This document shows, one piece after another, positions 9,140 to 13,273 of a DNA stretch of 64,000 nt (positions are counted from its first letter, which is position 1; every line of letters starts with the position of its first letter). This stretch comes from Halorussus limi (GTDB taxonomy: Archaea; Halobacteriota; Halobacteria; Halobacteriales; Haladaptataceae), in assembly GCF_023238205.1 (NCBI RefSeq), contig NZ_CP096659.1, positions 434,001 through 498,000 of the forward strand. The letters run 5' to 3'. The notes under the pieces are model-generated. The model had not been told where the DNA came from. It was given only the letters and a program-made list of their open reading frames with translations, and made no database searches. The translations under genes were made by a program, and so were the position numbers.

Positions 9140-10396
9140 ATGCCGGACCTGAGTGACCCGTCCGTCCGCGGCCTCGCGTTCGTCCTCGCCGGACTGGTCC
9201 TCCTCGTCGGTGCGTTCGGCGCGAGTTGGGCGCTCGCCCCGGACACCGACGCCGTCTCGGACCGAATCAGTGCCAGCGACACGCTGTTGGTGGGCGTGCA
9301 GGGGCCGGGACCGAACGGGAACGTGACCGCGCTCGACGGCCGCGGCGACGTGCGCTGGAGCCTCGGCGACATCATCAGCTACCAGAGCGTCGAGAAACTC
9401 GACAACGGGTCCGTGCTGGCGTCGTTCGCGGCGGGGGGTTACCGGAACTGCGGGCCGTACGACCCGCCGTGCAAGCGCACCGGGGTCCGCATCGTCGACC
9501 CCGGACCCGAACCGCGCGTCGTCTGGCAGTGGAGCTATCCGGTCCGGACCCGGGAGGACAGCGAGGTCCACGACGCCGAGATGCTCCCGTCGGGGAACGT
9601 CCTCGTCGCCGACATGGAGTTCGAGAGCATCTTCGTGCTGAATCCGAAGACCGGCGAGCGCGTCTGGACGTGGAACGCCAGCCAGCACTACGACGGTCCC
9701 GCGGACCCGACGACGACCGATTGGCTCCACCTCAACGACGTGGACCGCATCGGCGACGGTCGCTACCTCGTCTCGATTCGGAACATGAACCAACTCCTCG
9801 TCGTCGAGCGGGGACGGGGCGTGGTCGAGGTCGTGAACCGGGATGGCGACGCCGACGTGCTGAACAAACAGCACAACCCCCATTGGCTCGGCGACGGGGC
9901 GCTCGTCGTCGCCGACTCCGAGAACCACCGCGTGGTCGAACTCCACCGGAACGACACGACCGGCGAGTGGGAAGTAGCGTGGTCGGTGGCGAAGGTCGGC
10001 GGCATTTCGCTCGACTGGCCGCGGGACGCCGACCGACTCCCCAACGGCAACACGCTGATAACCGATAGCCGGAACAACCGCGTGGTCGAGGTGCGCGAGA
10101 ACGGGAGCCTCGCGGCGAGTTACTCGGTCCCGTCGCTCCCTTACGAGGCCGACCGCCTGCCCCACGGCGAATCGGCGGCGAAGTCGGTGTCGCCTTACGG
10201 CGTCGGTCACACGGCCGACACCGGGCTACTCGACCGCAGGATTCCGGTCCTCTCGACGCTCCTCGCGGGCGCTCGTCACGTCGTCGCGCTTCCCTACTGG
10301 GTGTCGGAGGGCCACCTGCTGGCGGTCGGCGTCGCGCTCGCGCTCTGGATTCGGGGCGGACACCTGCTGGTCCGCGGGCGACGGTCGGGCGAGTAG
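9140..10396 (+). CDS. Arylsulfotransferase-like membrane-anchored beta-propeller protein
   Basis: The 418-residue protein has an N-terminal membrane segment (about 11-33), then repeated blades with N-G-N and E-x-N-x-R motifs such as LPSGNVLVAD, LPNGNTLITDSRNNR and LVVADSENHRVVE, and a second hydrophobic segment near 375-400. The repeats match the ASST/arylsulfotransferase-like propeller group, many members of which are not proven sulfotransferases. The large domain probably lies outside the cell between the two anchors. A GGGAGG Shine-Dalgarno precedes the ATG. Substrate unknown. Confidence 0.7.
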   Translation: MPDLSDPSVRGLAFVLAGLVLLVGAFGASWALAPDTDAVSDRISASDTLLVGVQGPGPNGNVTALDGRGDVRWSLGDIISYQSVEKLDNGSVLASFAAGGYRNCGPYDPPCKRTGVRIVDPGPEPRVVWQWSYPVRTREDSEVHDAEMLPSGNVLVADMEFESIFVLNPKTGERVWTWNASQHYDGPADPTTTDWLHLNDVDRIGDGRYLVSIRNMNQLLVVERGRGVVEVVNRDGDADVLNKQHNPHWLGDGALVVADSENHRVVELHRNDTTGEWEVAWSVAKVGGISLDWPRDADRLPNGNTLITDSRNNRVVEVRENGSLAASYSVPSLPYEADRLPHGESAAKSVSPYGVGHTADTGLLDRRIPVLSTLLAGARHVVALPYWVSEGHLLAVGVALALWIRGGHLLVRGRRSGE

Positions 10397-10591: not shown

Positions 10592-10879
10592 CTACTTCAT
10601 CGTCACCCACGTCAGGAACGCGATGGCGACCAACTGGAGGCCGCGAAGCACCAGCACGGCCTGCTGGACGGTCGGGTCGCCCGAGTAGAGCATCTTCATG
10701 CTGAAGAAGAAGTAGATTGCGACCACGTTCTCGGCGAGCATGACGCTCCCGAACGCGACCAGTCCGAGGAGGAGCGAACTGCGGAACGTCCGGTAGTTGC
10801 GGACCCAGACGGTCGTGAGCAGACCGAGCAGGAGGATGTTCACGACCGCGATTCCGCTGGCGAACTGTATCGTACTCAT
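10592..10879 (-). CDS. Three-TM membrane protein paired with wHTH regulator
   Basis: A 95-residue hydrophobic protein with three predicted membrane helices (about 5-25, 35-58, 74-93). It lies 12 bases downstream of the wHTH gene at 10892-11167 on the same strand and is almost certainly cotranscribed. Similar regulator/small-membrane-protein pairs recur in haloarchaea (the membrane family is, I think, DUF7521). The membrane protein may signal to, or be controlled by, the regulator. That is inference. Confidence 0.7.
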   Translation of the reverse strand: MSTIQFASGIAVVNILLLGLLTTVWVRNYRTFRSSLLLGLVAFGSVMLAENVVAIYFFFSMKMLYSGDPTVQQAVLVLRGLQLVAIAFLTWVTMK

Positions 10880-10891
10880 GTCATGTCCCTC

Positions 10892-11167
10892 TCAGTCGAT
10901 GTGTTCCGTGATTTCCTCGAATGCCTCGCGGTGCTGTTCGAACTGGTCGGTGAGGAAGTAGAGCTTCCCATAGTCGTTGTCGCCCGGTTCGACCACGCCG
11001 TGGTCTTCGAGCATGTCGAGGTGGTGGCGCACCGTCTTGTACTCCACGTCGAGCGCGTCGGCGAGTTGGTTGGCGTTTCGGGGGCGCTCGGAGAGTTCGC
11101 GGATGAGCCGCGCGCGGTTCTCACCGCCGCGGGTCGCCGTGAGCAGGTACCAGAGCGCCTTGTCCAT
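10892..11167 (-). CDS. ArsR-type winged helix-turn-helix regulator
   Basis: A 91-residue single-domain DNA-binding protein. The helix-turn-helix is seen at about 30-57 (NANQLADALDVEYKTVRHHL) followed by the wing GVVEPGDNDYGKLYFLT. This is the typical dimeric ArsR/wHTH layout. There are no cysteines, so metal sensing of the ArsR kind is unlikely. It leads a two-gene operon with a three-helix membrane protein, which suggests control of, or by, a membrane signal. Confidence 0.85.
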   Translation of the reverse strand: MDKALWYLLTATRGGENRARLIRELSERPRNANQLADALDVEYKTVRHHLDMLEDHGVVEPGDNDYGKLYFLTDQFEQHREAFEEITEHID

Positions 11168-11204: not shown

Positions 11205-12743
11205 CTACGGCTCGACGCGCTTCGAGACCCACCCCGTCGCACCGCTCGGGAAGGGCTCGGCGTCTTCTTTCGGTTGGAGCGTCCCCTCGCCGTCCGTCGC
11301 GCGGACGACCACCTCGTGGGGAGCGGTCGCCTCGTAGGTGTACTGCCACTGGCGCCACGCGTCCTCGGCCGGGAGCGGGTCCGAGAGTTCGGCGTCCGTC
11401 CACGAGTCGCCGCCGTCGGTCGAGACTTCGACCCGCTCGATTCCTCGCGTGCCCGCGTAGGCGTGACCGCCGACCTGCATCTCGGTGGTCCCGCCGGACG
11501 AGTCGCCGAGGCGATTCACGGCGTGGAGTTTCGCCACGGTGTTCACCGGGCCGGTTCCGTGCCACCCGCGCTTCTCCCAGTAGCCTTTCGCCTCCTCCTC
11601 CAACACCTCGATTTCGGTGAGCCACTTCACGTTTATCTCGCCCCAGTGGCCGGGAATCAGCGCGCGGACGGGGTGGCCGTGGGCGCGGGGGAGCGGGTCG
11701 CCGTTCATCTCGAAGGCGAGGAAGCCGTCGCGGAGGGCCGACAGCGGGAACTCCTCGAAGTAGTCGTCGGCGGCCCGGAGCATGACACAGCAGTTCCCGC
11801 CCGCGTCGATGCCCGCCTCGTCGAGCAGGTCCATCACGGGAACCCCGGTCCAGAGCGCCGTGTCCATCTTCTTACCGTTCAGACCCTCGCCGACGCACCG
11901 CAGGGTGACGAACCGGTGTTCGACCGAGTCCGTCATCGCCGTTACGTCGTCGTAGTCGAACTCGGCTTCCTCCTCGACAGCACCCGTCACGCTCAGCGTC
12001 CAGTCTTCGCGCTTCGGGGTCGGGTCCACGTTGTTGATGTCCACCTGATAGAACTGCTCGCTGACCAGCGGTTCGATGCCGTCCACGTCGAGGGACTTCT
12101 CCGCTGCCTCGTCGAGCAGCGACCCGACGTCCGCCGATACCTCGCCGTCCGGGTCGGGCACGTCGCCGCCCTCGTCGGACCCGAGGACCGCGCCGACGCC
12201 GCCGACAGCGAACGCGCCAGCGACCGCTCGGAGGACGCGCCGCCGGGCCGACGACGTGGCGGCGCCCGACACGTCCGAATCGGTCCGTTCGCCACCGCCG
12301 ACCGAAGCGAGCGCGACCGTGAGGCCCGCCCCCGCACCGGCCGCGAGCGTGGAAGCGGCCGACCCGGTGAGCGCCAGCGCGACGGCGACGCAGGCCACGG
12401 GCGCGACCGCGAGCGCCGGGACCGCGAACCGGTCGGCGAGCAGGCTTCCGGCCGCGACCGTCGCGGCGAACAGGGCGACGGTCAGCGCGAGCGCCAACAG
12501 GAATCCGAGTTGGCTTCCGAGGTCCCCGAGCGTCTGGATGGACCACGCGACGACCGCGTCGGGCGTCGAGGCGACGACGACCTCGCTTATCGGCGCGGCG
12601 ACGAACGCGGGCGTCCGGCCGACCGCGGCGTACGACCCCGCGACCGCCGCGACGCCCGCCGCGACTGCGGCCGCGGTCGAAGCGAGGCGATTACCGGCGT
12701 CGGGGCGACCGAGCGCGACCCGAGGGTCGCGGCGGTCGGTCAC
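11205..12743 (-). CDS. Membrane-anchored molybdopterin-dependent oxidoreductase (sulfite oxidase/MsrP family)
   Basis: The 512-residue protein has three or four N-terminal membrane helices (about 21-42, 78-100, 105-128, 129-148), then an internal twin-arginine-like segment (ARRRVLRA at 167-173 followed by hydrophobic 174-187), then a sulfite-oxidase-fold domain. The Mo-ligand cysteine is C283 in TLRCVGEGLNG. A C-terminal Mo-co dimerisation-like domain with VEVSTDGGDSW follows. The catalytic domain is probably exported. The start overlaps the stop of the methionine-rich protein gene upstream by four bases, so the two are one operon. Substrate could be sulfite, methionine sulfoxide or another oxyanion. 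Confidence 0.8.
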   Translation of the reverse strand: MTDRRDPRVALGRPDAGNRLASTAAAVAAGVAAVAGSYAAVGRTPAFVAAPISEVVVASTPDAVVAWSIQTLGDLGSQLGFLLALALTVALFAATVAAGSLLADRFAVPALAVAPVACVAVALALTGSAASTLAAGAGAGLTVALASVGGGERTDSDVSGAATSSARRRVLRAVAGAFAVGGVGAVLGSDEGGDVPDPDGEVSADVGSLLDEAAEKSLDVDGIEPLVSEQFYQVDINNVDPTPKREDWTLSVTGAVEEEAEFDYDDVTAMTDSVEHRFVTLRCVGEGLNGKKMDTALWTGVPVMDLLDEAGIDAGGNCCVMLRAADDYFEEFPLSALRDGFLAFEMNGDPLPRAHGHPVRALIPGHWGEINVKWLTEIEVLEEEAKGYWEKRGWHGTGPVNTVAKLHAVNRLGDSSGGTTEMQVGGHAYAGTRGIERVEVSTDGGDSWTDAELSDPLPAEDAWRQWQYTYEATAPHEVVVRATDGEGTLQPKEDAEPFPSGATGWVSKRVEP

Positions 12744-13273
12744 GGTCGCCTCCGCGCGACGTAGAGCGCGCCAATTAGCGCGACAAGTGCCGCGCTGACG
12801 CCGAACCCGGGCGCGAACGCGCTCGACTCGCTGTCGGCGGCGTCGGTGGTGTCGGTCATCGAGTCGCCGCTGGTGCGCTCGCCGGTCGTCTCGGCCATCG
12901 AACCGTCGGCCGCGGAGTCCATCGAGTCGTCACCCATCGACTCGTCCGCGCAGGTCGTCCCCGAGGCCATCGCGTCGGTGGTGGTCTCGCCCATCGTCCC
13001 GTTCATCGATTCGTTGCCCATCGCCGCCGTCGTTTCACTCATCGACTCGTCGTCCATCGTCTCCGTCTCGTTCGCCATTCCCTCCATCGACTCGTTGCCC
13101 ATCGTCTCGCTGGTCGTTTCCCCCATCATCCCCGTCGTCTCGTTCATCGACTCGTCGCCCATCGTCTCGGTAGTCGTCGGGCCGCACTCGGTCGTCGTCT
13201 GCTGTGCCGTAATCGGCGCGACGCAGACCGTGAACACGAGTACCGCCACCGTAATCGGCGTTGCAAAACGCAT
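12740..13273 (-). CDS. Methionine-rich PGF-CTERM-type surface protein
   Basis: Start taken at MRFATPITVAV, which gives a clean signal peptide (1-23) over 177 residues. The mature part is built of short repeats such as GNESM, ETM and DDESM. It holds 17 methionines in about 110 residues, with Thr, Ser, Glu and Asp and almost no basic residues. The C-terminus, APGFGVSAALVALIGALYVA followed by RRR, is a PGF-CTERM/archaeosortase-type anchor. The gene overlaps the molybdoenzyme gene by four bases. Methionine-rich exported proteins bind copper or act as oxidant sinks, and the neighbour could reduce its methionine sulfoxide (inference). Confidence 0.75.
   Translation of the reverse strand: MRFATPITVAVLVFTVCVAPITAQQTTTECGPTTTETMGDESMNETTGMMGETTSETMGNESMEGMANETETMDDESMSETTAAMGNESMNGTMGETTTDAMASGTTCADESMGDDSMDSAADGSMAETTGERTSGDSMTDTTDAADSESSAFAPGFGVSAALVALIGALYVARRRP

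Follow-up and report, generated by a model that had tools for sequence, protein, structure and literature searches.

A methionine-rich surface protein encoded beside a membrane-tethered sulfite-oxidase-family enzyme in Halorussus limi: a candidate oxidant-scavenging module of the haloarchaeal envelope

In the Halorussus limi genome, a gene for a small exported protein crowded with methionines overlaps a gene for a molybdoenzyme of the sulfite oxidase superfamily, raising the question of whether the two products work together and, if so, on what. Both genes lie on the minus strand of the stretch of DNA analyzed here, 64,000 nucleotides in length and referred to as the window. The initial annotation had proposed an oxidant-repair pair analogous to the bacterial MrpX/MsrP system, with a copper site as an alternative use of the methionines.

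The first gene (12740..13273, minus strand), delimited by its open reading frame, family matches, and orthologous pairs, encodes a protein of 177 residues. It begins with a predicted signal peptide at residues 1-23 (MRFATPITVAVLVFTVCVAPITA; 13205..13273, minus strand), a hydrophobic segment judged by eye, followed by a methionine-rich core at residues 38-139 (12857..13162, minus strand), composed of units such as MGNES and MDDES and holding 17 of the 18 methionines counted with the start. The C-terminal PGF-CTERM anchor, residues 151-177 (12743..12823, minus strand), scores above the cut-offs of both TIGR04126 (34.2 against 24.5 bits) and PF18204 (24.9 against 18.8 bits). The coordinates given in the initial annotation are exact, and its four-base overlap is confirmed, with the GTG start codon of the enzyme gene and the TGA of the methionine-rich gene sharing positions 12740-12743 as GTGA. 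Five N-X-S/T sequons are found in the core, at residues 44, 60, 68, 87, and 91, such that the surface protein may be N-glycosylated.

In 40 partner proteins, the cores consist of 21% Met and 34% Asp plus Glu, with 0.1% His, 0.3% Cys, and 0.0% Lys, and their methionines are periodic, Met-Met spacings of 5, 10, and 15 being enriched 2.7-, 2.0-, and 1.9-fold, while distances of 1-3 are strongly depleted. Over the 464 kb of the H. limi genome on which the background rate of methionine-rich exported ORFs was measured, no second acidic, low-complexity, methionine-rich exported ORF was found. The same genome encodes a Gln/Met-rich, Gly-rich protein (L136:4927-5661; MSEKYQQSTGSTGQQ...), which is rich in methionine but neither acidic nor exported-looking.

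One explanation of these cores is drift, in which acidic haloarchaeal linkers grow by slippage, ATG falls into the repeated unit by chance, and the methionines have no function. The cores do differ in length and turn over quickly from species to species, and some consist of highly repetitive units (L146, L151). However, the few Thr/Asp/Glu-rich linkers found to precede other PGF-CTERM anchors in the H. limi genome contain only 1 Met in 240 residues (0.4%), and the adjacency to the enzyme recurs. Moreover, no DNA tandem array spans the methionine region and the codons of the window core vary, indicating that this region is not a recent slippage product. Drift is the least probable of the explanations weighed here. 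Copper handling, in which the protein would buffer surface Cu(I) through thioether ligands, whether linked to the molybdoenzyme or not, would make use of many methionines in an acidic, flexible sequence, and Cu(I) motifs built from Met alone are found in other proteins. Nevertheless, His and Cys are almost absent from the cores, the short Met-Met distances that characterize Mets motifs are precisely those depleted, and no copper gene was recognized among the ORFs listed near the window module or among the neighbors that were scanned. The copper site of the initial annotation, weakened on these grounds, was dropped as lead reading, and we consider copper handling very improbable.

The second gene (11205..12743, minus strand) encodes a membrane-tethered enzyme of 512 residues, assigned to the sulfite oxidase family by its Pfam domains, AlphaFold model, and fold match. 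The Oxidored_molyb (E 4e-37) and Mo-co_dimer (E 9e-10) domains, together with the fold, place it within the superfamily in the broad sense. In the AlphaFold model (mean pLDDT 85.8), five long helices and a short hairpin precede the catalytic fold. Four of these helices and the hairpin form the N-terminal membrane domain, residues 16-147 (12303..12698, minus strand; model and alignment columns), while an internal Tat-like segment, residues 165-190 (12174..12251, minus strand; model and alignment), carries twin arginines at 167-168, located before the fifth long helix. R167 is kept in 41/43 and R168 in 43/43 homologues, and export through this internal twin-arginine signal is predicted; the membrane anchor and Tat-like segment described in the initial annotation are thus borne out. 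The catalytic and dimerization domains, residues 231-512 (11208..12053, minus strand; PF00174, PF03404, and fold match), are predicted to be extracellular and contain the putative molybdenum ligand, Cys283 (11895..11897, minus strand), which is invariant in 43/43 sequences, aligns with Cys185 of chicken sulfite oxidase, and sits in the RCV motif of Escherichia coli MsrP. His is absent from residues 1-200 of the window enzyme, and a heme in the membrane domain is not supported, as no heme-ligand His is conserved there among 43 sequences, the only His column (position 77) being occupied in 13/43.

If the enzyme were a sulfite oxidase or dehydrogenase acting outside the cell and passing electrons to halocyanin or a cytochrome, its methionine-rich neighbor would be incidental. 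In the whole-fold ranking, SorA, SoxC, and chicken sulfite oxidase stand above MsrP, and the Mo-co dimerization domain, absent from MsrP, is kept, so that the fold as a whole lies nearer to sulfite dehydrogenases. The active site argues otherwise. Residue numbers of the chicken enzyme were taken from the PDB sequence, and its alignment from hhalign, which gave a consistent placement where HMMER had displaced the Cys region relative to SorA. R138 then lines up with V234 or D235, R190 with L288 (39/43 sequences), and R450 with the S500/G501 region; the loop is 14 residues shorter and has lost W204, and Y322 is replaced by W394. As R138, R190, R450, the W204 loop, and Y322 are all without counterpart, the sulfite anion-binding site is gone. 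In addition, the enzyme falls far below the NCBIfam cut-offs for SorA (105.8 against 600 bits), SoxC (98.2 against 420), and SorT (96.8 against 570), and the recurrence of the methionine-rich gene is not that of an incidental neighbor. An ordinary sulfite oxidase was rejected on the active-site residues, and this reading is improbable.

The N-terminal half of the enzyme, on the other hand, shares 30% identity with E. coli MsrP over 154 aligned columns, with FY...DP and RCV motifs in common, and it presents the MsrP-type molybdenum-ligand Cys in the RCV motif and a short loop. MsrP itself does not act as a sulfite oxidase (PMC4228395). Orthology with MsrP was nevertheless rejected, given that the enzyme scores 48.5 bits against the MsrP model NF003767, whose cut-off is 207, and that no MsrQ-type protein (PF01794) matched in its own genome, while control genomes were positive. 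The enzyme, which lies below the MsrP, SorA, SoxC, and SorT family cut-offs, is best treated as an unassigned subfamily.

The pairing of the two genes recurs well beyond the genus. Among 28 genomes of the same family, the enzyme has 20 orthologous loci, in Halorussus, Haladaptatus, and Halomicrococcus; a methionine-rich PGF-CTERM ORF lies directly upstream in 16 of them, and the remaining four (L012, L024, L025, L027) have a VTT/DedA-type gene in this position. In Halorussus salinisoli (L012/L038), the methionine-rich gene is missing, the enzyme, winged-helix, and membrane-protein genes are retained, and the translated leader that elsewhere stands ahead of the methionine-rich gene (LEQSWKRLGAKWARVRKTPF) persists, now before the enzyme. 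Across Halobacteria, the level at which the initial annotation had left co-occurrence to be checked, the enzyme is present in 173/292 genomes, and an acidic, methionine-rich exported ORF is found directly upstream in 33 of 91 full-length loci. A gene fragment with three in-frame stops, apparently a decayed copy of the enzyme gene located on a 270,724-base replicon, was noted for L028 (G003:C7) and the Haladaptatus halobius plasmid NZ_CP085341.1.

The 33 partners were scored as 20 of PGF-CTERM type, 11 Tat lipoproteins, and 2 others, their anchors ranging over PGF-CTERM, other C-terminal transmembrane tails, Tat lipoproteins, and methionine-rich leaders on Spondin or DUF7482 domains. Among the lipoprotein partners, a Spondin_N-like domain is found in L045 (above the Pfam cut-off) and in L049 and L051 (both just below), and DUF7482 in L083, L092, and L096. 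Mapped on the enzyme tree, partner presence is scattered and requires a minimum of 16 changes, of which well-supported branches enforce 12, indicating repeated gain and loss of the association. Most enzymes have no such partner (58/91 loci, about two thirds); a second sample, drawn outside the family and comprising 40 loci, had a true partner in about 8 and none in about 32, two automatic calls (L202, ThyX-like, and L215) having been dropped as false positives on reading the sequences. Conversely, methionine-rich lipoproteins without the enzyme also exist (L140, L142, L146, L147).

A reverse test, in which the enzyme was not used, searched 292 haloarchaeal genomes with a DNA pattern encoding a tandem pair of Met pentapeptides. 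The pattern matched 31 genomes (3 for a reversed control), and the enzyme was found directly downstream on the same strand at 10 of the 30 loci fetched, where about 0.006 would be expected from position alone. The remaining matches include chance hits, very acidic proteins, and methionine-rich lipoproteins without the enzyme. Proteins with methionine-containing acidic repeats further include lipoproteins of DUF4397-like type (L158, L160), one protein that resembles cupredoxins (L153), and exported proteins that are long and rich in Asp (L154, L155, L161-L165). A literature search for archaeal methionine-rich partners returned nothing relevant. We consider it very probable that the methionine-rich protein and the enzyme form a real functional module.

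Two downstream genes, absent from the initial annotation, complete this module. The third encodes a 91-residue ArsR-like winged-helix (wHTH) regulator (10892..11167, minus strand; PF12840, PF01022), followed by the fourth, for a 95-residue small membrane protein (10592..10879, minus strand) with no Pfam match above cut-off and with relatives in 198/292 haloarchaeal genomes. Convergent with the module, positions 9140-10396 of the window (plus strand) encode a membrane protein with an arylsulfotransferase/NHL-type propeller. The wHTH/membrane pair lies downstream of the enzyme at 29/33 loci with a methionine-rich partner and at 20/57 others (Fisher p ~1e-6), an association that keeps its direction but is not significant after phylogenetic pairing (median p 0.22). 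At two further methionine-rich loci (L078, L079), the pair is placed divergently upstream; at L146 and L147, it follows a methionine-rich lipoprotein and the enzyme is absent; and at L169-L178, L181, and L182, it adjoins a Tat spondin-type lipoprotein with neither the enzyme nor a methionine-rich gene beside it. The simplest reading is that the pair would act as a shared sensor and regulator with interchangeable exported outputs.

These loci also bear on the possibility that the enzyme and the methionine-rich protein merely belong to one envelope-stress regulon under wHTH/membrane control, the enzyme acting on another sulfoxide, an N-oxide, or a small molecule, and the methionine-rich protein being passive, sacrificial, or structural rather than its substrate. 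Such a regulon would accommodate the distribution of the pair after the enzyme, its presence at loci that lack the enzyme, next to a methionine-rich lipoprotein (L146, L147) or, where that is missing as well, a spondin-type one (L169-L178, L182), and the many partnerless enzymes. However, direct adjacency and frequent overlap, repeated with non-homologous anchors, exceed what co-regulation requires, and we regard this explanation as doubtful.

The nearest bacterial relatives found are proteins of Actinobacteria and Thermus named “molybdopterin-dependent oxidoreductase,” with 35-40% identity over the catalytic part. Relatives from Rhodococcus, Arthrobacter, Streptomyces, Mycobacteroides, and Thermus share the membrane plan and, in several cases, an exported lipoprotein neighbor with sigma/anti-sigma genes nearby; in contrast to the haloarchaeal partners, this lipoprotein has a fasciclin domain and no more than a short methionine-containing leader, as carried by the Arthrobacter protein. 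Loci with fasciclin-domain lipoproteins and/or sigma/anti-sigma genes beside the enzyme relative (L189-L191, L194-L196) are plasmids of these five genera. A literature search for fasciclin proteins with anti-sigma factors and a molybdoenzyme returned nothing relevant. Because bacterial relatives adjoin fasciclin lipoproteins and sigma/anti-sigma genes, the module may extend beyond archaea. In its broadest form, which we put forward tentatively and below an even chance, there would be a cross-domain envelope redox module around a heme-less, membrane-tethered enzyme, to which haloarchaea repeatedly added methionine-rich partners with varied anchors under a wHTH/membrane regulator, while actinobacterial relatives work with fasciclin lipoproteins and sigma/anti-sigma factors, the methionines of the lipoproteins being the substrate.

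For the haloarchaeal pair itself, the preferred reading is an envelope oxidant-scavenging module, a functional analogue of MrpX/MsrP (BcrX/BcrPQ), a proposition we judge evenly balanced. The anatomy of the genes, their recurrent linkage, the composition and period of the cores, the loss of the sulfite-site arginines, and the genes of the module are observed here; the rest of the scheme is inferred, from export and molybdenum content to the substrate, the direction in which the enzyme works, its source of electrons, and regulation. The PGF-CTERM-anchored protein would present many methionines at the cell surface, where hypochlorite, peroxide, or similar oxidants would turn them into methionine sulfoxide. 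The enzyme, its four helices placed in the membrane by Sec and the fifth afterwards by Tat, so that its molybdenum domain would face outside, would reduce the sulfoxides back with electrons from a donor other than MsrQ, for which halocyanin and membrane cytochromes are candidates, making the methionine-rich protein a renewable sink, and the wHTH regulator and small membrane protein would probably sense stress and control expression. 

The MrpX/MsrP analogy of the initial annotation is upheld in part. The recurrent linkage, the reverse test, the five-residue Met period, the loss of the sulfite-site arginines, and the MsrP-like N-terminal half speak for it, as does a match of the L047 partner to the MXKDX model TIGR02953 (47.7 bits, cut-off 41), which in such low-complexity sequence is suggestive but not proof of homology; L143 (39 bits) and L073 (14.9 bits) score below the cut-off, and the window protein, L078, and L146 give no match. 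Against it stand the partnerless majority of enzymes, the methionine-rich lipoproteins without the enzyme, the lack of MsrP orthology, of an MsrQ-type protein, and of a conserved heme His, and the ranking of sulfite dehydrogenases and oxidase above MsrP. According to a 2018 review, no archaeal enzyme of the sulfite oxidase family is known to use methionine sulfoxide as a substrate (PMC6211008). If the reading is true, the MrpX/MsrP oxidant sink would have its first counterpart in archaea, and a widespread uncharacterized molybdoenzyme would gain a substrate. Methionine-rich sinks would then have been recruited repeatedly next to a single enzyme family, and the locus would also offer a candidate pair of regulators and a link to the fasciclin/sigma-factor loci of Actinobacteria.

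Several known systems resemble parts of this locus. Like the sulfite oxidases and dehydrogenases (SO, SorA, SorT, SoxC), the enzyme has a two-domain fold and a conserved molybdenum-ligand Cys, and its His355 and Arg360 align with the chicken His and Arg in RDHGFPVRVVVPG; unlike them, it lacks the three substrate-binding arginines, W204, and Y322. With MsrP (YedY), it shares the FYxxxxxxxDP and RCV motifs, the short Cys loop, and the absence of sulfite-site arginines, but it has an additional Mo-co dimerization domain and an internal rather than N-terminal Tat signal, and MsrQ is absent. The five-TMD molybdenum proteins of the Sco3746 type, which use dual Sec/Tat targeting and have reported euryarchaeal members (Tooke et al. 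2017, PMC5449189), are similar in their membrane domain, the RR before the fifth helix, and the C-terminal exported molybdenum domain, although they carry conserved heme-ligand His in TMD2-4 (PMC5449189), none of which is conserved in the haloarchaeal enzyme. The window protein matches both traits of PGF-CTERM (ArtA-dependent) surface proteins, namely the anchor and, as judged by eye, the signal peptide.

The closest functional parallels are bacterial. In Brucella, BcrX is an MXKDX protein homologous to the Azospira methionine-rich sink, co-transcribed with BcrPQ, homologues of MsrPQ, in an operon that is induced by HOCl and contributes to HOCl resistance (PMC8315932). In both Brucella BcrX-BcrQP (PMC8315932) and, as described in PMC5748585 and PMC8315932, Azospira suillum MrpX/YedY1(MsrP)-YedZ1, an exported methionine-rich protein with a five-residue Met period, a trait recovered in the haloarchaeal partners, is encoded beside a sulfite-oxidase-family enzyme with dedicated regulator genes nearby. 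In contrast to these systems, the haloarchaeal repeat unit uses D/N/E and has no Lys, a replacement by acidic residues that would fit a halophilic proteome, and the protein is anchored by PGF-CTERM, a transmembrane tail, or lipid. Likewise, the enzyme is a membrane-tethered fusion with a Mo-co dimerization domain rather than MsrP with MsrQ, and the wHTH regulator and small membrane protein take the place of the ECF sigma/anti-sigma pair.
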